From Anaerolineae bacterium (GTDB lineage: Bacteria > Chloroflexota > Anaerolineae > DRVO01): a stretch of 61,975 bases of DNA. Below the pieces are notes generated by a model. It was not told the DNA's origin, did no database searches, and saw only the letters and a program-made list of their open reading frames with translations. Below, piece after piece: positions 2,160-60,397 of the stretch. The position numbers and the translations under genes are program-made. The stretch lies in the NCBI GenBank assembly GCA_013178015.1, contig JABLXR010000022.1, positions 1 through 61,975 on the forward strand, given 5' to 3'. Numbering within the stretch: the first letter of the stretch is position 1; every line of letters starts with the position of its first letter.

Positions 2160-3449
2160 CTACAGGTCCGGCGCGAAAGCGTACGTCCGCTCCTCCAGAT
2201 AGCTCGACCCCAGCGGTTGCACCCGAAGGAGCGCCGCCTTGCCCAACCGCTTCTGCAGCTCGGCCGCCACCTGAACCAGCCTCTGGCGGGCCTTGCGCTT
2301 CTGGAACAGCGTCAGTTGCTTGCCCATCTGGGGCGCCAGGGCCTCGGCCCGCAGCCCCAACTCCACCACCGGCCCACCGATGATTCCCTCCAGGCACCGC
2401 CGGGCCACGTCGGCCATTGCTGGCGCCAGCGCCGTCGGCTCTTTCAGCGTCACCTCCCGGCTCTCCTTTTCCCCTGACTCCACCTGCCACATCACCCGCA
2501 GGGACACGCAAGACCATCCTTCCCGGCGCAGTCGGCCCGCCACCTCCTCCGCCAGCCGGCCCAGCGCCGTCTCCAGGTCTGAACAAGACACGAGCGCGGG
2601 GTCGAACTGCCTCCCGGCTTCCACCTCCGGCAGCAGAAGGGAGGAGCGGTAAATCTCCACCCCTCCGAAGAGGCTCCAGCCGCGAGTCCGGCTCACGTCG
2701 TTCGTGGCCAGCCGCCAGGCCTCCAGCCCAGGCAGGCCGAACTGCGCCTGCATGGCCACCCGCCCCAGCCCGGCCACGTCGCCCAGGGTGTGTAGGCCCA
2801 GCAACCTCAACCGCCGCAGCATTTCCCGCCAATCCGAGTCCGGCGCCGGCAGTACGTCCAGAGGCAAGGGAGCAAGGAAGGCCATCTCTTTCCCCGGCAC
2901 CACGATGCATATACGCCTGCCGCCGTGCCGGGCCGCCATGGCGGCAGCGAATTGCCCCCCGGCGATTCCCACCCGTGCCGCCAGTCGATCGCATCCTCTC
3001 TCCTGGAGCAGAGCTTCACCGTCCCCCTCCGGCGAGGTGCCTGGGGCGGCCCTCCTCCACTCTTGCAGCACCAAACGCGCCAGCGTCCTCTCGTCGCCCA
3101 CGAGCCGATCCAGACCTCGCACTCCCATGAAAGCTAGGCCCAGGGAGGGCGAAGCCACCTCCGGCGTCAGGCGCAACAGGGGCGCCAGGCTCTCGCGGTG
3201 CCACTGCCGGTAGTGGTCCTCGTCCGCCGGCACCGGCACCGCCTGGGGGCAGAGCGACAGCGCCCGCGAGAGTAGCATGCCCTCCCGCACGCCCGCCTCG
3301 GCTGCCCGCCCGCAGCCCTCCACCACCACCGGCCGTCTGCCGCCGTCGTAGATCACCACCGGCACCGGGGTCAACTCCGGCCGCCGTACCCTCTCGACCA
3401 GAACGCGAAACTGAGGCACATATAGGCAAAGCACTCGATGTTGTCTCAT
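2160..3449 (-). CDS. Catalytically inactive Y-family DNA polymerase-like protein (ImuB-like)
   Basis: A 429-residue protein with the palm, fingers, thumb and little-finger layout of Y-family polymerases. The acidic catalytic residues are missing: where active enzymes carry DxxxFF this one reads LYVPQFRVLVE, and the SxDE motif is replaced by GLAFMGVRGLD. That pattern is typical of ImuB, a non-catalytic partner in SOS mutagenesis that recruits the replicase. I chose the ATG at 3449 because GAGGA lies just upstream. An in-frame extension to 3542 is encoded by the neighbouring repeat element and is probably not native. No ImuA or DnaE2 gene is in the window, but a DUF6504-like gene, a usual ImuB neighbour, lies at 17961. 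Confidence 0.8.
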   Translation of the reverse strand: MRQHRVLCLYVPQFRVLVERVRRPELTPVPVVIYDGGRRPVVVEGCGRAAEAGVREGMLLSRALSLCPQAVPVPADEDHYRQWHRESLAPLLRLTPEVASPSLGLAFMGVRGLDRLVGDERTLARLVLQEWRRAAPGTSPEGDGEALLQERGCDRLAARVGIAGGQFAAAMAARHGGRRICIVVPGKEMAFLAPLPLDVLPAPDSDWREMLRRLRLLGLHTLGDVAGLGRVAMQAQFGLPGLEAWRLATNDVSRTRGWSLFGGVEIYRSSLLLPEVEAGRQFDPALVSCSDLETALGRLAEEVAGRLRREGWSCVSLRVMWQVESGEKESREVTLKEPTALAPAMADVARRCLEGIIGGPVVELGLRAEALAPQMGKQLTLFQKRKARQRLVQVAAELQKRLGKAALLRVQPLGSSYLEERTYAFAPDL

Positions 3450-3463
3450 GTTTCCTCGCATAT

Positions 3464-3570
3464 GATCCGTGATACGTGATACATGACGCGTGATACGTGA
3501 CCCGTGACTCCCGAGGTCACACCGTTCCCAGTCACGTATCACGCATCACGCATCACGTATCACGTATCAC
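3464..3570. repeat. Snap-back element, ACGTGAT word family (copy 1)
   Basis: The left arm is a run of variants of GTGATACGTGAT and the right arm is the reverse complement (ATCACGTATCACGCATC), around a short unique loop (about 3513-3533). It fills the space between the tail gene, whose TGA stop (3567-3569) lies inside the arm, and the polymerase-like gene. The RNA would fold into a long hairpin. A second, one-armed copy is at 25054. Confidence 0.75.
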
Positions 3571-7141: not shown

Positions 7142-8434
7142 ATGGCGCGCAAGAGTGCAGTTAAGCTCCTCGCCCTTCCCCTGTTGGTCGCCCTTCTCTG
7201 CGTCGGGCCGGCACTGGCCGAAGAACCCCCCGACCTCTCCGCTCAAGCTGCTCTCGGCAGCGCCTTCACCTACCAGGGCCGCCTCCTCGACGACAACGCT
7301 CCCGCCAACGGCAGCTACGACTTCGAGTTCAAGCTCTACGATGGCAGTGACCCGAGCACCGCTACCCAGGTCGGCAGCACCTTTGCGGTGAACGACCAGG
7401 CGGTGAGCGGCGGTCTCTTCACCACTGCCCTCGACTTCGGCAGCGCTCCCTTCAATGGCCGAGCCCTCTGGCTGCAGACAGGTGTGCGCCCGGGCAGTAG
7501 CAGCGGCAGTTACACTGCTCTCTCTCCGCTCACCGCCCTGACCGCTGCTCCTTATGCTCTTTTCGCCCTCAATACCGCCGGCAGCCCCTATGCAAACGTT
7601 GTTGTCGTGGCCAAGCGCGGCGGCGACTTTAGCACCATCCAGGCAGCCCTGGACAGCATCACCGGCGCCAGCGCCATGAACCATTATCTCGTCTGGGTGG
7701 CGCCCGGTGTCTACAACGAGAATGTTACCATGAAGCAGTACGTGGACATTGAGGGTGCGGGCGAACTGGCGACTAAGATCACCGCCGGCGGCAGCAGCTC
7801 CCTTGACTCCGGCACCGTCATCGGAGCGAGCAACGCCGAGCTGCGCCTGCTGACGGTGGAGAACACCGGTGGGGACACCTACGCCATCGCCCTCGTGAAC
7901 AAGACAGCTACCCTTGCCCTCACTCACGTGACCCTGCGCGCCTCAGGAGGAACCACTGGCAACACTGGTATAAGGAGCAGTGACAATTCGCTGCTTGGTC
8001 TCAGGGACGTCACCATATACGCCTCTGGCGGTAATGCTGCTATTGGCGTGCAGAATCGCAACTCTGTTGGGGGAGTTGTCATGGTCGATACGGTCATCTT
8101 CGCTGCCGATGGCTCAGTCGGCAATGCCGGCGTAACCAACGAGAGCGCCAGCTGCATCATCAGCCAAAGCGGCATCAGCGCCTCTGGCCCGGCGGCGGCA
8201 ATAGACGTTGGCATCTACAATCTGGGCAGCGTCGGCAGCTATGGGGTAACGGTGAACCACTCACAGGTGCTCGGCACTGACAACACCATCTACAACGATG
8301 CCGCTTTCCAATCGCGCGTGGGGGCTTCACAGCTTGCTGGCGGCCCAGTACACAATGTTGGCCCGGGCTCGGTGGTCTGCGCCATGGTCTACGACGAGGG
8401 CTATACACCCTTTGCCGTCGCCTGTCCGCCATAG
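7142..8434 (+). CDS. Secreted protein: FTYQGRL module plus beta-helix (pectinesterase-like)
   Basis: A 430-residue exported protein. A signal peptide (MARKSAVKLLALPLLVALLC, cleaved near LAEE) is followed by a module of about 110 residues beginning AFTYQGRLLDDNAPANGSYD and ending LTALTAAPYALF. The rest is a right-handed beta-helix of pectinesterase or carbohydrate-binding type (GGDFSTIQAALDSITGASA, then repeated turns). AAGGAGG five bases before the ATG at 7142 fixes the start. It heads a plus-strand set of five secreted proteins; the first module is nearly identical at DNA level in the gene at 9970. A cell-surface structural or sugar-binding role is likely. Confidence 0.7.
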   Translation: MARKSAVKLLALPLLVALLCVGPALAEEPPDLSAQAALGSAFTYQGRLLDDNAPANGSYDFEFKLYDGSDPSTATQVGSTFAVNDQAVSGGLFTTALDFGSAPFNGRALWLQTGVRPGSSSGSYTALSPLTALTAAPYALFALNTAGSPYANVVVVAKRGGDFSTIQAALDSITGASAMNHYLVWVAPGVYNENVTMKQYVDIEGAGELATKITAGGSSSLDSGTVIGASNAELRLLTVENTGGDTYAIALVNKTATLALTHVTLRASGGTTGNTGIRSSDNSLLGLRDVTIYASGGNAAIGVQNRNSVGGVVMVDTVIFAADGSVGNAGVTNESASCIISQSGISASGPAAAIDVGIYNLGSVGSYGVTVNHSQVLGTDNTIYNDAAFQSRVGASQLAGGPVHNVGPGSVVCAMVYDEGYTPFAVACPP

Positions 8435-8446
8435 GAGGTTGCTGCT

Positions 8447-8806
8447 ATGAGCAAGCGCTTCATCCTCGCAGCCCGTGTCATATCCCGTAGCATAGGGTCT
8501 CGTGCCCGTTTCCACGCCCACAAGGGGCTATGCTACATCGCCGTCTTCCTAGTGATCGTGATCCTGGCCATCGCCGGCGGCGCGGCCCTGGCCCAGACCG
8601 GCGGCCCCTACGACCTCACCTGGCACACCTTCGACGGAGGCGGCGGCACCACCTCCGGTGGTCCCTATGCCCTCTCCGGCACCATCGGCCAACCCGACGC
8701 CCAAGTCATGACCGGCGGCCCTTACACCCTCCAGGGAGGCTTCTGGGGCGGCTCCGCCTCCGGCATCGTCGTCTACACTCCCCTGGTGCTGCGGAACGCG
8801 GGGTAG
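8447..8806 (+). CDS. Small secreted GGPYDLTWHTFDGGG protein (copy 1)
   Basis: A 119-residue protein with a hydrophobic export segment (VFLVIVILAIAGGAALA). The conserved core GGPYDLTWHTFDGGGGTTSG is followed by GGPYALSGTIGQPDAQ, and the C-terminus reads YTPLVLRNAG. The core occurs in many exported proteins of Chloroflexota, but its function is unknown. GGAGG stands eight bases before the ATG. From residue 40 on it is nearly identical, also in DNA, to the protein at 11113. It lies 12 bp after the beta-helix gene and likely shares its transcript. Confidence 0.7.
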   Translation: MSKRFILAARVISRSIGSRARFHAHKGLCYIAVFLVIVILAIAGGAALAQTGGPYDLTWHTFDGGGGTTSGGPYALSGTIGQPDAQVMTGGPYTLQGGFWGGSASGIVVYTPLVLRNAG

Positions 8807-8841
8807 GTGAGACGCTCTCGCCCTTCCATCAGGAGGATCAA

Positions 8842-9897
8842 ATGACACACAAGAGTATCCTGAGATTCCTTGCCCTTGGACTGCTGGTCGCTTTTCTTTC
8901 CCTCACGCCAACCGCCGCAGCCGAAGAGCCGTCCCTAACCGCCCAAGCGCCGGTCCCTGTTGCCTTCACCTACCAGGGCCATCTGCTGGACGGCGGCAGC
9001 CCGGCCAATGGCGGCTACGACTTCGAGTTCAGGCTCTTCGATGCCTCTACCGGAGGAAGTGAATGGATGACCTCCGTCACGGTAGAGGACGTAGCCGTGA
9101 GCAACGGCGTCTTTACGAGCATACTCGACTTCGGATCTAACCCCTTTACGGGACCGCTTGTCTGGCTCCAGGTGGGCGTCCGCCCCGGGTCCAGCGACGG
9201 TTCCTACACCATCCTTACCCCTCGCACCCCTCTCACCGCCACTCCTTATGCCCTGGGCTTGCGCTTCGGCACCACCATGATCGGCACCGGCAGTGGGCTC
9301 ACCGTTGCCAGCAGCGACTCCGGCACGGCAATTCTGGGTCAGAGCAATGGCGGCTATGGCGTCTACGGGGCCAGCAGCGGCAGTGGCGCCGCCATCATGG
9401 CCGCCGGGAATGGGCGCATCAAGAGCAGCGCCAAGTCCTACGTCTTCGTGCCCGGCAACCTGGCCGTGCTCCACGCCGCCAGCGTCAATGCCACCTTGCA
9501 GTACTGGGGCCAGGGAGACGTCTCCCTGGTGTCCTCAGGCGCTGGTGACAAGCAGATCGTCTTCCCCGTGACCCTGCCCGCCATCCTCTATGCTCAGCCG
9601 GTGCGGGTGGAGGAAGTCTCCTTCACTTTCAAGCCCACGGGCGCGGGCAGCACTCCCACTCGAGTGGAAGTCTACCGGGCTAAGATGGATGGCACCTACC
9701 GCGTTATAGCCAGCGTGGAGGGAGCCTACATCTGCGAACCGGCCGGGTCGTGGTGCCCACCGGTTACCCTCGACATCACCAGCGACAACGTCCTGGCAGC
9801 CGACGACGGGCAACTGGCGGTGCGCATCTACTGCAACATCCCCTCCGGCGGCAGGATCGAGTTCACCGGTGTGCGGGTGCGGCTGGGACACAGCTAG
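8842..9897 (+). CDS. Secreted protein with FTYQGHL module (paralogue 2)
   Basis: A 351-residue exported protein with a signal peptide (LALGLLVAFLSLTPTAAAEE), then the shared module from AFTYQGHLLDGGSPANGGYD to TPLTATPYALGL. A glycine-rich stretch (GQSNGGYGVYGASSGSG) leads to a C-terminal beta-sandwich-like domain that resembles the one in the gene at 9970. AGGAGG precedes the ATG at 8842. Two cysteines (about residues 300 and 308) could form a disulfide. Less similar to paralogue 3 in DNA than paralogues 1 and 3 are to each other, so it is probably an older copy. Confidence 0.65.
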   Translation: MTHKSILRFLALGLLVAFLSLTPTAAAEEPSLTAQAPVPVAFTYQGHLLDGGSPANGGYDFEFRLFDASTGGSEWMTSVTVEDVAVSNGVFTSILDFGSNPFTGPLVWLQVGVRPGSSDGSYTILTPRTPLTATPYALGLRFGTTMIGTGSGLTVASSDSGTAILGQSNGGYGVYGASSGSGAAIMAAGNGRIKSSAKSYVFVPGNLAVLHAASVNATLQYWGQGDVSLVSSGAGDKQIVFPVTLPAILYAQPVRVEEVSFTFKPTGAGSTPTRVEVYRAKMDGTYRVIASVEGAYICEPAGSWCPPVTLDITSDNVLAADDGQLAVRIYCNIPSGGRIEFTGVRVRLGHS

Positions 9898-9969
9898 GAG
9901 AGAGATGAACATAGCCCAGGGAGACCGGCACGCTCCCTACCGGCCTTCATTCTCCACAGGAGGCGTAAC

Positions 9970-11100
9970 GTGAAGACTCGAACCATGATGCATCTGGCTC
10001 TCTGGCTGCTTCTTGCTGTCCTCCTCTGCGCCTCGCCGGCCGTAGCTGATGAGCCGGACCTTTCCGCCCAGGCCGCCCTCGGTACCGCCTTCACCTACCA
10101 GGGCCGCCTCCTCGACGACAACGCGCCCGCCAACGGCACCTACGACTTCGAGTTCAAGCTCTACGATGGCAGTGACCCGAGCACCGCCACCCAAAGGGGC
10201 AGCACGATCACCGTGGACGATCTGGCCGTGACCAACGGCAACTTCACTGTCTCCCTCGACTTTGGAGGAAGCCACTTCAATGGCCAGGCCCTCTGGCTGC
10301 AGGTAGGGGTGCGCCCCGGCGCCAGCAGCGACCCCTACACGGCACTGTCGCCGCTGACGGCCCTCAATGCCGCCCCCTACGCCCTCGGGTTGAGGCCCGG
10401 AGCCAGACTGACCGGCACAGTCAACGCGGAGCCCATGTTTGCTGCCACCAACACCGGCACTGGAATGGCCCCCGTTGGTGTGTGGGGCAATAGTGTCAAC
10501 GCTGCCGGCGTCTACGGTCAGAGCACCCATAGCATTGGCGTCAGCGGCGTCGGCCCCGTGGGTGTGCAAGGGTACAGTGCTACCGGAGGCGTGGCAATCA
10601 GAGCCTCTGGTACCGGCGTCATCCAGAGCACTGCCAAGTCCTACCTCTGGATCAGCGGCAACTCCCTGCAAAAGGCAGACACGAACGACACCACCCGTTT
10701 CCTCTACGACTATTACGGTGGCTATTACGTGTACGGAGGCACTGATTGGGTTCATAACAAGACCGTCGTGCTGCCGGTCACCATTCCCGGCCAGTTGTAC
10801 GGTCAGAACGTCACCATGACCGGGCTCCGCTTGTACTTCTCCACCTCAGATGACCTCACCGGCATTACCATAGTCGCCATGCGCAGGCAGAACGGGGTGG
10901 GAGCAGGCGATGAAATCTTTCGCGACGACACAGACCGGGTCTGCCCGGGGGCGCAGTGCGTGCAGCATTGGGACCTGACGACAAACAACGTCCTCAGCGA
11001 CCAGCGCGGCATCGTCTACCTCGCCATCCAGTGTGGCTTTGCTGGCAGTGGTTCCTGGGTGCAGATCGGCGGCGCCCGCCTGACCCTGGAACACGACTAG
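9970..11100 (+). CDS. Secreted protein with FTYQGRL module (paralogue 3)
   Basis: A 376-residue exported protein. The start is a GTG eight bases after AGGAGG, followed by a signal peptide ending near SPAVADE. The shared module (AFTYQGRLLDDNAPANGTYD to LTALNAAPYALGL) is almost base-for-base the same as in the gene at 7142. A linker of glycine-valine turns (VYGQSTHSIGVSGVGPVGVQ) leads to a C-terminal domain like that of paralogue 2. Its function is not known; the mosaic of shared N-terminus and exchangeable C-terminus suggests surface proteins that diversify by recombination. Confidence 0.65.
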   Translation: MKTRTMMHLALWLLLAVLLCASPAVADEPDLSAQAALGTAFTYQGRLLDDNAPANGTYDFEFKLYDGSDPSTATQRGSTITVDDLAVTNGNFTVSLDFGGSHFNGQALWLQVGVRPGASSDPYTALSPLTALNAAPYALGLRPGARLTGTVNAEPMFAATNTGTGMAPVGVWGNSVNAAGVYGQSTHSIGVSGVGPVGVQGYSATGGVAIRASGTGVIQSTAKSYLWISGNSLQKADTNDTTRFLYDYYGGYYVYGGTDWVHNKTVVLPVTIPGQLYGQNVTMTGLRLYFSTSDDLTGITIVAMRRQNGVGAGDEIFRDDTDRVCPGAQCVQHWDLTTNNVLSDQRGIVYLAIQCGFAGSGSWVQIGGARLTLEHD

Positions 11101-11112
11101 AGGAGGCGTGCC

Positions 11113-11421
11113 ATGCCACAGAGCCCAAGACCTCGCGCCCACAAGAGCCTCTACCTCGGAACGGTCGTCCTGCTCGCCCTGCTCCTGGTCGGCGGCGCGG
11201 CCCTGGCCCAGACCGGTGGCCCCTACGACCTCACCTGGCACACCTTCGACGGAGGCGGCGGCACCACCTCCGGTGGTCCCTATGCCCTCTCCGGCACCAT
11301 CGGCCAGCCCGACGCTCAAGTCATGACCGGCGACCCCTACACCCTCCAGGGAGGCTTCTGGGGCGGCTCTGCCTCCGGCATCGTCGTCTATACTCCCCTG
11401 GTGCTGCGGAACGCGGGGTAG
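11113..11421 (+). CDS. Small secreted GGPYDLTWHTFDGGG protein (copy 2)
   Basis: A 102-residue paralogue of the protein at 8447. It has a simple signal peptide (TVVLLALLLVGGAALAQ) and then the same core and the same YTPLVLRNAG end. The DNA of about 225 bp (8580-8806 against about 11195-11421) differs at only a handful of places, which points to recent duplication or gene conversion. AGGAGG precedes the ATG. Its TAG stop is also the first bases of the AGGTTATAGG-family element that follows. Confidence 0.7.
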   Translation: MPQSPRPRAHKSLYLGTVVLLALLLVGGAALAQTGGPYDLTWHTFDGGGGTTSGGPYALSGTIGQPDAQVMTGDPYTLQGGFWGGSASGIVVYTPLVLRNAG

Positions 11422-11490
11422 GTTGTAGGCTATAGGTTACAGGGGATAGGGAGGCAGCTCTTGCTTCTCGTTCCCTATCCCCTGTGATCT
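11421..11490. repeat. Snap-back element, AGGTTATAGGGGAT word family (copy 1)
   Basis: A left arm of GGTTGTAGG, CTATAGGTTACAGGGGATAG words, a loop of about 20 bases, and a right arm ending CCCTATCCCCTGTGATCT. It starts at the stop codon of the small secreted protein gene. It can act as a hairpin terminator for the plus-strand set. Confidence 0.7.
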
Positions 11491-11940: not shown

Positions 11941-12051
11941 ACAGGTTCCAGGGGATAGGACCGTGGGGAGTAGAGCTCTCGCTGGAGATATGCCCCCTAT
12001 CCCCTGTAACCTATCCCCTATCCCCTATAACCTATCCCCTGCCCTATCCCC
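11941..12051. repeat. Snap-back element, AGGTTATAGGGGAT family (copy 2)
   Basis: One left-arm unit at 11941-11960 and a longer right arm of CCCCTATCCCCTGTAACC words up to 12051. It covers the 3' end of the minus-strand connector gene and supplies its TAG stop at 12044-12046. Confidence 0.7.
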
Positions 12052-12649
12052 AACTCACCCACGCCGGCGCTGATGCCGGGCGCAACGCCTTCAGCCGCGC
12101 CCGGAACAGGGCCAACATGGACTGCCCCCAGTCGCTCATCATCCGAGCCGCGCCCGAGGGCCAGGAGTACTCCCGCGCCATGGAGGCCGCCTTGGCCAGA
12201 GCCGCGTACCCCGCCGCCCCCGTCACCAGCAGGCTGAGCCACTCCCGGGGCACCGTCGTCTCCGACGCCCCCTCCAGCCCAGAGATGGTATGCTCCCCGG
12301 CGTAGAGCACGTGCACCATGTCGCCCGGCGCCGGCTCCACCACCGTATACAGATGGGCCACCCCATCCCTAACCTCGAAAGGCACCACATTGGGCGGATA
12401 CGATCCTCCCTCGTAGGGCCACCACACCTCCTCTACCCACAACAGCCCCGCCAGAGAAGCCAGGGGCACCTCCCGCCCGCCCAGGTCAAGAGTGACGTCA
12501 CCGCTCAAGCTCAGCGGCAGCCGCTGCGATACGTCCGCCAGCGCTAGGCTCAGGGCCGCATCCAACTCCTCCTCCGTCCACGATGACCCAGCCCGGTCCT
12601 TCAGCAAATCCATCAACGCCGCCCGATAGCCACCTATGTCGTCAGCCAA
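12044..12649 (-). CDS. Phage head-tail connector-like protein
   Basis: A 201-residue protein of the type found between capsid and tail genes. It has an N-terminal helical part (ALMDLLKDRAGSSWTEEELD), a middle beta region with WVEEVWWPYEGGSYPP, and a C-terminal helical pack (LVTGAAGYAALAKAASMARE) ending with helices rich in R and A. The start is a TTG at 12649, five bases after GGGAGG. Assignment to connector or adaptor (gp6-like) rests on this layout and the phage context; confidence in the exact role is moderate. The stop codon is inside the repeat element. Confidence 0.5.
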   Translation of the reverse strand: MADDIGGYRAALMDLLKDRAGSSWTEEELDAALSLALADVSQRLPLSLSGDVTLDLGGREVPLASLAGLLWVEEVWWPYEGGSYPPNVVPFEVRDGVAHLYTVVEPAPGDMVHVLYAGEHTISGLEGASETTVPREWLSLLVTGAAGYAALAKAASMAREYSWPSGAARMMSDWGQSMLALFRARLKALRPASAPAWVSWG

Positions 12650-12666
12650 CGCAACCTCCCGTGTGA

Positions 12667-12768
12667 CCCCGAGGGGGGAGAGGGGGAGACGCGGAGATGG
12701 GGAGACAGGGAGACACGGAGACAGGTTGGCTCCCCCTCTCCCCCTCTCCCCCTCTCCGCGTCTCCTCA
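12667..12768. repeat. Snap-back element, GGAGACACGGAGA word family (copy 1)
   Basis: The left arm has GGGGGAGACGCGGAGATGGG-type words and the right arm the complementary CCCCCTCTCCGCGTCTCC words. The TGA stop of the minus-strand gene at 12766 is at its edge. It lies between two phage-type genes. Confidence 0.7.
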
Positions 12769-17840: not shown

Positions 17841-17960
17841 GCCACAGAGCCACGGAGACACAGAGAAGGGAATAGGTTACAGGTTATAGGGAATAGGGCA
17901 GGGTCGCTGGATGCACATCCCTATAACCTATCCCCTATTCCCTATGACCTGTCCCCTGCC
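17841..17960. repeat. Two adjoining elements: CACGGAGACACAGAG words, then AGGTTATAGGGAAT words
   Basis: Bases 17841-17867 carry GCCACAGAGCCACGGAGAC; its counterpart in reverse is at 18213-18243 on the other side of the small gene. Bases 17868-17960 are a full AGGTTATAGG-family hairpin with a loop around GTCGCTGGATGC. The TGA stop of the minus-strand gene at 17961 is adjacent. Confidence 0.7.
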
Positions 17961-18209
17961 TCAGTCGTACACCCGGTGCATGTACCACTCGCCGCTCAGC
18001 CGGTCGCGATACACCTCGCAGAGCAGACTCCCGCTCTCCCACAGGTAGTAGTCCCGCCAGACTTCCCGGTCCCACCACTCCGTGTGTACCCGCCAATGGT
18101 TGCGCCCCTCTCCCCGGTAGGTAGCCCCCCTCCAGCGCAAAGCCACCGGGTATCCTTCCCCATCGGTCTCCACCTCTATCGCCCTTGCCGGCTTATACAG
18201 CCTGCTCAT
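17961..18209 (-). CDS. DUF6504-like small protein
   Basis: An 82-residue tryptophan- and tyrosine-rich protein: ALRWRGATYRGEGRNHWRVH, TEWWDREVWRDYYLWE and a closing WYMHRVYD. This pattern matches DUF6504, a small domain usually encoded beside ImuB-type polymerases or fused to them. Here it lies between capsid and portal genes, 14.5 kb from the ImuB-like gene of this window. I chose the ATG at 18209, five bases after GAGGG. Its biochemical role is unknown; DNA-damage linkage is inferred from the family's usual neighbours. Confidence 0.6.
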   Translation of the reverse strand: MSRLYKPARAIEVETDGEGYPVALRWRGATYRGEGRNHWRVHTEWWDREVWRDYYLWESGSLLCEVYRDRLSGEWYMHRVYD

Positions 18210-20087: not shown

Positions 20088-20220
20088 TAGACACGGAGAC
20101 GCGGAGAGGGGGAGAGGGGGAGAGGGGGAGACAAGAGGAAGCCAATGAGCCCCGTGTCTCCGTGTCTCCGTGTCTCCCCGTCACCCCGTCTCCCCCTCTC
20201 CGCGTCTCCCCGTCACCCCC
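20088..20220. repeat. Snap-back element, GGAGACACGGAGA family (copy 2)
   Basis: The left arm has AGACACGGAGACGCGGAG and three GGGGGAGA units; the right arm has CCCGTGTCTCCGTGTCTCC words. It lies between the terminase and the holin-like gene and borders the terminase TGA stop. Confidence 0.7.
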
Positions 20221-21758
20221 ACTCCTCGTCCAACACGTCCCCCGCCGCCAGGACCGTCCCCGCCGGGGCCACGCTCGTCTCTCCCGCCGCCCGCAGGCAC
20301 AGCGCCAGCGACATCACGAAGTCGTCGTGGCCCTCCGCCTCGGGCACGTAGAAGTTTAGCGTCCGGTTGGCCCGCAGGTCGGCCCGGGCTGCTCCCATCT
20401 GTCGCCAGAACTCGGCGTGCTCCGGCGAGCCGTCGGCCCGGTAGACCTTCAGCCCACCCCGGTTGATAGCCGCCAGCAAGTCATAGCCCAGCCGGCTCTT
20501 GCTCCCCTGGGTGAAGACCACCTTCTCCACCCGCTCCCCCAGGGCCGTCTCCAGAAAGTCTGACATGCCGGCGCCCATCCCCGTGGCGTCCACCGCCACC
20601 CGGCGCACGTCCCAGGTGCGCAGCAGGTCCAGCAGTTGAGCGTAGACCTCCACCTGCGGCCGCCCCGTCCACCAGTAGTGCTGCACTACCTCGAGGCAGG
20701 TTATAGGGAATGGGTTACAGGGTATAGGGAGTAGGTCAGAGGGGAACCCCTGTTCTCTGTCCCCTGTAACCTGTAACCTCGCAATAGTCACCACCGTGCT
20801 GTCCCGCCCCGGCTCCTGCCGCCGCCTCCCCGCATCACGTAGGGGTGCGGTCTCCGCGCTCGAAACCAACGCTGCCCCGGCCAAATCCACCCCGGCCACG
20901 TACCGCTCGCCCAGCACCGGCCTCACCTGCCGTTCGTGCTTCCCCTGCAACTGGACCCGCTGCTCCGCCGAGAGCAGCTTCCCCTCGTCGTGCAGCACCT
21001 CCAGCTCGTACTGGGTGCGAAACAGCGGGTGCTGCGCCCCCAGGCGCTCCCTCTCCCCCTTCACGTAGGCCCCGTACTCCTGGGAGATGGCCGCCAGCTC
21101 CCGCCAGTCGTACTGGAAGTGACGGCGGATGCCGTCCTGTCGCTCCAGTTCCAGGTTGCGTCGCTTCTCCCGCTCCAGCAGTCCGTCTTGGGTCCAGGCC
21201 GTGCCGTAGAGGACCGTGGTCACGTTGGCCGTAGCGCCCATGGGGCGGAAGTCCCGGTCGTACTTTTCCGGGGAGAAGTCCTGGGCTTCGTCTATCTCCA
21301 GCAGCACGTTGGCCGTGGCCCCCACTACATTGGCCTCCGGCGCCCCCGAGAGCAGCATCAGCCGCGCTCGACCCAGCTCGAAGGTGTAGCCACCCCGCAG
21401 CCGGTAGGCCCGCCGGTTCCAGGAGTTATCCAGCACCTCCCGCAGCCGCAGGCGCGAGAGCCACCGCCTGCGGCCGAAAGGTGGGCGCCGCCTTGATCAG
21501 CGTCCCACCCCGGCGGCAGAACAGATTCAGCAGGTAGCACTCCAGGTGCGCCGAGAGCTCGTTCTTGCCCATCTGGCGGGCCAGCATCACCGTGAAGGTC
21601 AGCCCCCGCTTCTCCCAGACCGACCGCAATACCGCCCGCACAACCTCCAACTGATAGGGCCGCAACTCCCGCCCGATCACGTAGCGGGAGAACAGCGCCG
21701 GGTCCCCCAACAGCTGCCGTACCCCCCGCTCCAACCGCCTCTCCAACCCTGCCCCCAC
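20213..21758 (-). pseudogene. Terminase large subunit, split by a frameshift
   Basis: The N-terminal piece (21426-21758, GTG start) has the ATPase Walker A segment TVMLARQMGKNELSAH. The C-terminal piece (20213-21436) has Walker B VLLEIDEAQDF and the nuclease aspartates in YVAGVDLAG, VAVDATGMGAG and GHDDFVMSLALC. A one-base shift around 21450-21475 separates them: frame one reads FRPQAVALAPA, the other frame continues WLSRLRLREVLDNSW. The C-terminal part also contains about 27 residues encoded by a repeat element (20698-20779). Large terminase pumps DNA into the prohead. As written it cannot be made as one chain unless the ribosome slips or the base call is wrong. Confidence 0.82.
20698..20779. 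repeat. AGGTTATAGGGAAT-family element inside the terminase frame
   Basis: The left arm is AGGTTATAGGGAATGGG plus similar words; the right arm is CCCCTGTAACCTGTAACCT, around a short loop. Reading the terminase strand it stays open and adds a proline-rich stretch (FPSDLLPIPCNPFPITC) between IARLQV and EVVQHYWW. Confidence 0.75.
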
Positions 21759-22862: not shown

Positions 22863-23083
22863 CAAAGACGGGGAGACACGGAGATGGGGAGAGGGGGAGA
22901 TGGGGAGACGTGGGGCTCATCAGCTTCTTCCTGTCTCCTTGTCTCTCCCTCACCCCCTCTCTCCCTCACCCTGTCTCGCCCTCTCCGTGTCTCCCCGTCT
23001 CCCCCTCTCCCCCTCTCCGCGTCTCCCCGTCTCCCCCTCTCCTCCTCTCCGCGTCTCCCCGTCTCCGCGTCTCCCCCTCCACA
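22863..23083. repeat. Snap-back element, GGAGACACGGAGA family (copy 3, longest)
   Basis: A short left arm (GACGGGGAGACACGGAGATG and GGGGAGA units) and a long right arm of many CTCCCCGTCTCCCCCTCTCC units. It fills the gap before the SpoIID-like gene. Frames reading through it are serine-proline repeats and are not counted as coding. Confidence 0.7.
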
Positions 23084-23187
23084 ACCTCCAAACCCGACAC
23101 CGGCTTCCGCTTTGCCGCCGCATGACCCGCCGCCACTCCTGCCTTTACACTCGGAAGAGACATCGCGAACTGACACAGGGGGTTGCC

Positions 23188-60287: not shown

Positions 60288-60397
60288 AGGGGATAGGTTA
60301 TAGGTTATAGGTTATAGGTTATAGGGATTAGGGAGGAGCGCCGGGTGCGCGCCTTCGCCCCTGTAACCTGTTCCCTATAACCTGTAACCTACCCCTG
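60288..60397. repeat. Snap-back element, AGGTTATAGG family, between cas1 and cas2
   Basis: The left arm has GGATAGGTTATAGGTTATAG with the heptamer TATAGGT repeated four times; the right arm has CCCCTGTAACCTG and CCCTATAACCTGTAACC. The loop is about 30 bases. It stretches a junction that is usually only a few bases long. Confidence 0.75.

Follow-up and report, generated by a model that had tools for sequence, protein, structure and literature searches.

A hairpin within a phage terminase gene of an uncultured Anaerolineae bacterium is probably one copy of a lineage-specific heptad-repeat family associated with gene 3′ ends

Introduction

A hairpin-forming repeat lies within the open frame for a large terminase subunit of an uncultured Anaerolineae (Chloroflexota) bacterium, which raises the question of what this repeat is, what it does elsewhere and how it came to be translated as part of a protein. 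The sequence-only reading of this DNA held that a complete element had entered the frame as a clean insertion, that its family can move, and that it resembles the palindromic elements of Rickettsia (RPEs). We analyzed one contig of 61,975 nucleotides, called the window throughout, together with the genome to which it belongs (G000; 4.57 Mb in 97 contigs), a genome of the same genus (G001, 93% complete) and one of the same family (G002).

Results

The presence of a hairpin in the terminase that is read through in frame was confirmed. Two arms, scored at 56 bits (20697-20745) and 42 bits (20748-20779), contain 81 of its 83 nt, and the minus-strand frame at 20213-21436 crosses it without a stop, as TIA-RLQVTGDREQGFPSDLLPIPCNPFPITC-LEVVQHYWW, with about 27 residues coded by the element (Table 1). 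With at most one mismatch allowed, the window has 21 occurrences of AGGTTATAGG, where 1.15 would be expected. As RNA the hairpin is predicted to be stable (-40.1 kcal/mol; z -3.6, 60 shuffles), and a wider fold as single-stranded DNA was marginally better than shuffles (z -1.65; 10/200). This copy is degenerate, its two arms agreeing less well than those of most copies.

Table 1. Positions in the window of the terminase parts and of family-A hairpins and single arms
Feature	Position	Strand	Remarks
Family-A heptad hairpin within terminase frame	20697-20779	.	5′ arm 20697-20745, loop 2 nt, 3′ arm 20748-20779
Terminase large subunit, Walker B and nuclease part	20213-21436	-	Open frame of 407 aa, passes through the hairpin
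N-terminal (Walker A) part of same terminase, other frame	21426-21758	-	
Family-A hairpin	17867-17958	.	Phage block; 2 nt after stop of ORF 17961-18173 (-); loop motif TGTGCATCCAGC common to two other copies
Family-A hairpin	60288-60391	.	Lies 5 nt past the cas1 stop and 11 nt ahead of the cas2 start
Single family-A arm	11419-11452	+	Starts at TAG stop of ORF 11113-11421
Single family-A arm	11995-12041	-	2 nt from TAG stop of ORF 12044-12613 (-); convergent with arm at 11419

The PHROGs terminase families match this frame weakly (1.3e-05), viral relatives that are 40-54% identical align along it with invariant residues that we take to be the Walker B and nuclease motifs, and portal and capsid genes adjoin it. 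In all four homologs tested (4/4), the N-terminal match lies in one frame (window ~21468-21731), and from ~21436 down the remainder matches in a second frame. The frame thus changes at 21437-21468, after the Walker A part and before the Walker B part, upstream of the hairpin; either the gene is broken there or a base is wrong in the assembly. Because of this upstream shift, the copy need not lie in a working gene. In one viral relative of the terminase (L384), GTACAGG heptads and CTGACCGTCCAGGACAGTG repeats flank the terminase region (L384:198-240 and 3060-3190).

The hairpin belongs to a family, here called A, of about 45 copies made of heptad arrays of the form AGG(TT/GR)A(T/C), with a G-rich arm first and the reverse complement second. 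Among 357 units, positions 1-3 are nearly fixed as AGG, and most units are AGGTTAC, AGGTTAT, AGGGGAT, AGGGAAT, AGGGAAC or AGGGGAC; the unit sequence is degenerate, and the arrays differ in length, with no length common to all. Wherever strong adjacent arms lay within 500 nt of each other, the G-rich arm came first (30/30), so that the arms form convergent pairs. The arms of a single hairpin showed no correlation in length or composition. Unit order within hairpins was slightly mirrored relative to arms of different hairpins (p 0.047), which is weak as a sign of fold-back copying. Most loops are unrelated, three share TGTGCATCYAGC, and two tandem paralogous genes at L090 each end in a family-A hairpin (9606-9723 and 10560-10688) with near-identical loops, as a local duplicate. 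These shared and near-identical loops show that some of the copies derive from entire hairpins. The idea of a conserved loop that served as the family's mobile core was rejected, since only these loops agree notably. As RNA, the stems fold far better than shuffles (29/29 below z -2), and a search of Rfam gave no match within the window. At L049:10260-10380 we observed a nested hairpin in which CCACGCAGACACGGAG-type outer arms surround family-A arms.

Where an outer edge of a family-A element faced a gene 3′ end, it lay within 6 nt or overlapped the gene in 34 of 38 cases, compared with 3 of 25 control hairpins without family arms, two of these three being of a further repeat family (CGCTGAT); edges facing a gene start (n = 27) lay at a median distance of 19 nt. 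Genes ending at or inside a family-A element had TAG as the stop codon in 26 of 27 cases, and stops over all gene calls were TAG 305, TGA 316 and TAA 56. Of the arms of the GTGA(T/C)(A/G)C type, 19 of 21 stand directly against a gene 3′ end, and the stop is TGA in 15 of 19 cases. Both preferences are explained by the arrays themselves, because a frame that enters one soon meets the unit's own stop as the 7-nt period rotates through the three frames. The hairpin at 60288-60391 fills the cas1-cas2 gap of a CRISPR operon, with a Card1-like CARF gene upstream and a repeat array from 61642.

Further families of short hairpin units were found in the window and genome, namely GGAGACxx, GTGA(T/C)(A/G)C, TAGTGGx, CGCAGAGAx and, with varied spacing, CGCTGAT. 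Across the five families scanned, A included, neighbouring arms were G-rich or purine-rich first in all 59 of 59 cases. Abutment on 3′ ends was seen in 5/5 cases for TAGTGGx, 5/7 for GGAGACxx and 2/7 for CGCAGAGAx. Unit scans for GGAGACxx and TAGTGGx (families B and E) did not exceed the reversed-sequence null (14 vs 14 and 8 vs 38), so these two families rest on the observed hairpins. Hairpins of the GTGATAC and GGAGACxx types stand at window 3463-3569, 12658-12765, 20090-20214 and 22866-23087, several of them at gene ends, and the 7-kb phage block with its edge holds hairpins of two families. Separately, neighbouring genes at window 7229-11423 contain repeated stretches of 80-300 nt that are 80-98% identical.

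We then considered how widely family A occurs. A strict pattern for it matched 246 times in G000, and the stretches examined cover 218 of these matches, so our sample is near complete; 540 kb of G000 picked regardless of matches held one strong arm. The family was absent from both G001 and G002. A class-wide search gave at least one match in 58 of 298 genomes, none near the G000 count; in some other genomes backwards-pattern controls exceed the pattern because those genomes carry other heptads, and only the G000 count was used. Since G001 is without the family and has 7 residues at a site where G000 has 47 (see below), the copies are recent, having arisen since the two genomes split. The claim that the family can move is therefore upheld in the sense that new copies do arise, which need not mean that a unit transposes.

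Of the 45 family-A elements within the first 827 kb of G000 sequence, window included, 42 lay outside genes and three inside, yet 86% of this DNA was called coding by our home-made gene caller. The three genic copies are in the terminase, in a UvrD-like helicase (P0002), whose named relatives are mostly from Anaerolineae and other Chloroflexota, and in P0003, a protein whose family is unknown. A fourth in-frame copy, in a GNAT acetyltransferase (L263), came from stretches beyond these 827 kb. Further in-frame copies, which the sequence-only reading had suggested looking for, thus exist. To compare the sites with their counterparts elsewhere, we examined 89 terminase loci, which gave 83 distinct homologs after duplicate proteins were dropped. 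The stretch from TIA to the next strand is 11-27 residues long (median 16) in these homologs, of unrelated sequence, and 30 in the window protein; about three residues would be left without the element. The view that the flanks join naturally once the hairpin is removed is thus not borne out. Homologs do carry unrelated sequence of variable length at exactly this site, once of 27 residues (L392), the longest found, so that the observation which the sequence-only reading named as refuting was made by half. In an AlphaFold model of the terminase (mean pLDDT 83), the element lies at the tip of a beta hairpin formed by strands 213-224 and 245-257, with residues 226-241 at pLDDT under 50. The element thus occupies the place of a variable turn, a natural flexible loop.

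The other genes gave a similar result. The helicase copy sits just before the motif LLYVGITRAR, in a linker of 55 residues compared with 8-34 (median 11) in 106 homologs. In the acetyltransferase a turn has 47 element-coded residues, compared with 7 in nine of ten homologs, that of G001 among them, and 13 in the remaining one. For P0003, the single usable relative, from G002, aligns badly across the element site. In the terminase, helicase and acetyltransferase, then, the element fills a short variable linker whose native residues are gone, and the clean insertion that alignment of related terminases had been expected to reveal was seen in none of these three testable genes.

We also assessed whether native DNA had been lost at gene ends. 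Of 22 C-terminal fragments at family-A elements that were searched, 20 had orthologs in G001 or G002 (at least 58% identity), and these end 0-9 residues from the aligned end, with one exception at 18. At 12 syntenic junctions, where the next gene is conserved, the spacing left after discounting the element was compared with the G001 ortholog, or with that of G002 if no other had been identified. It was smaller in G000 at 10 of the 12 by this count; more residual spacer than in the ortholog was found at L045_5964 and L093, and L045_7775 equals its G002 ortholog. These data hint that native DNA may have been replaced at intergenic junctions as well, a weaker case than that of the three proteins because intergenic DNA turns over anyway between G000 and G001.

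Discussion

Based on these results, we think it probable that the terminase hairpin is one copy of a lineage-specific heptad-hairpin family that has a role at gene 3′ ends and has spread by growth of arrays that replace sequence. A 3′-end role is the most likely function because the stems fold better than shuffles as RNA and stand where transcripts end; the hairpin behind a gene would normally mark a transcript end or act in a terminator-like manner. In spreading, unit arrays would grow at the expense of unconstrained sequence, and selection would tolerate their edges nowhere but at gene ends and the borders of dispensable loops. The terminase copy would then be a stray, sited in the remnant of a prophage with a presumably already broken terminase frame, where it lengthens two antiparallel strands in the nuclease domain and forms their disordered tip. 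The spread may well have been by sequence-replacing growth, perhaps after breaks, which fits the data better than cut-and-paste does; a transposed fixed unit is disfavoured because lengths vary, arms are independent, target duplications are lacking and native sequence is lost.

REPs have an associated transposase (RAYT, a Y1 enzyme), and family A could likewise be a non-autonomous mobile element such as a REP, REPIN or MITE, of which a tyrosine (Y1) transposase acting in trans makes entire copies. We regard this as unlikely. It would account for the loop motif common to three copies, G000 does encode one Y1_Tnp protein, and REPs, in the excerpted account used here, adjoin gene 3′ ends, give a TAG stop and occur inside genes, those of UvrD/REP helicases included (PMC3733652). 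However, the elements share neither length nor loop, their sites have lost native sequence, their 74 outer edges show no fixed tetranucleotide, and target duplications were at or below the null (6-mers 0/29, 5-mers 1/29). Furthermore, no family-A unit pair was found in 3,333 bases around the Y1 gene; as the only such gene of G000 has no units beside it, a Y1 transposase was rejected as a neighbour of the family.

A second possibility, and a more doubtful one, is the healing of double-strand breaks, in which a hypothetical activity would add heptads to both 3′ ends, the ends would be joined, and the palindromes would break again, eroding the flanks to the gene edges. Such a process would put the G-rich arm first in every case, make the arms independent and the loops unique, and lose native DNA. 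The polarity (59/59), the uncorrelated arms and mostly unrelated loops, the replaced linkers, the existence of single arms and the lack of target duplications are all consistent with it. The activity itself is hypothetical, though; three copies share loops, the two convergent single arms in the window, ~540 nt apart, fit badly, and no reverse transcriptase domain, hence no telomerase-like enzyme, was found in G000. One could speculate further, with slightly less assurance again, that breaks are tailed with 7-9 nt units of several families before joining, and that re-breakage erodes the flanks until a stop codon, ribosome-binding site or structured protein region is reached, so that the terminase, helicase and acetyltransferase copies would be scars. 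Spread driven by a reverse transcriptase (group II intron, DGR, retron or telomerase-like) was rejected, as RVT_1 was found in none of G000, G001 and G002, while 3 of 14 control genomes were positive.

Still less probable is replication slippage, by which chance heptads near stop codons would expand in place, each independently, in the manner of simple-sequence repeats. The degenerate units and variable array lengths agree with this, and slippage is cited as a cause of heptamer excess in bacteria in the part of the paper drawn on here (PMC4692102). However, a single unit family occupies dozens of unrelated loci in G000 and not one in G001, slippage alone provides no means of making the opposite arm, and for the copies with shared loops it is refuted. 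That nothing entered the terminase, and a linker ranging over 11-27 residues in homologs only resembles the repeat, is barely credible given 81 of 83 nt in two scored arms, a core found 21 times against 1.15 expected, and the same picture in other genes.

Family A is a clear case, beyond Rickettsia and the species that bear REPs, in which a hairpin repeat gives stop codons to dozens of genes. The same repeat gives new peptide segments to a few genes, and relatives show the element-free state. This sharpens an old question, that of how heptad repeats spread and why they stand in convergent pairs; any mechanism must account for why the polarity is fixed, the arms are independent and native sequence is lost.

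Among the open-access papers searched, none described this family in Anaerolineae, and the comparisons that follow rest on excerpts of the papers named. The proposed kinship with RPEs did not hold up. RPEs are about 150 bp long, encode a conserved peptide and lie within genes in nearly half of cases (PMC10969869). Family A shares with them palindromic DNA translated in frame within unrelated proteins, of four genes here, but only 3 of 45 copies are in genes, 42 being outside; there is no shared sequence of fixed length and no conserved open frame, 13 of 156 frames being open in 26 intergenic copies. REPs, palindromes of 20-40 nt with a tetranucleotide foot, GTAG or CGTC (PMC3733652), resemble family A in adjoining gene 3′ ends, supplying TAG and having in-frame genic copies; family A differs in its tandem heptads, variable length, and lack of a foot and of an adjacent Y1 gene. 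The TAACTGA heptamers of Beggiatoaceae likewise form lineage-specific intergenic heptad arrays, but as direct repeats just upstream of start codons (MacGregor 2015, PMC4679880), whereas family A forms hairpins at stop codons.

The closest likeness is to the G-rich heptameric repeats GGGAATC of Xanthomonas and GGGGA(C/T)T of Nostoc, which stand in convergent pairs close to stop codons (Rehm et al. 2015, PMC4692102). As far as the excerpted account goes, the two have in common degenerate heptads, convergent inverted-repeat pairs, an intergenic bias with few intragenic copies, and a place on the sense strand just past the stop, overlap with the stop included. Family A differs in its unit (AGG..A.), in that pairs are the rule and abutment on the stop is near exact, and in having in-frame copies with loss of the native linker, seen through homologs. 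G000 also carries several families of 7-9 nt units in one genome, and family A is absent from the two nearest relatives compared. Family A is therefore a known kind of repeat, and what is new is its sharper anatomy and the comparison with relatives that are without it.
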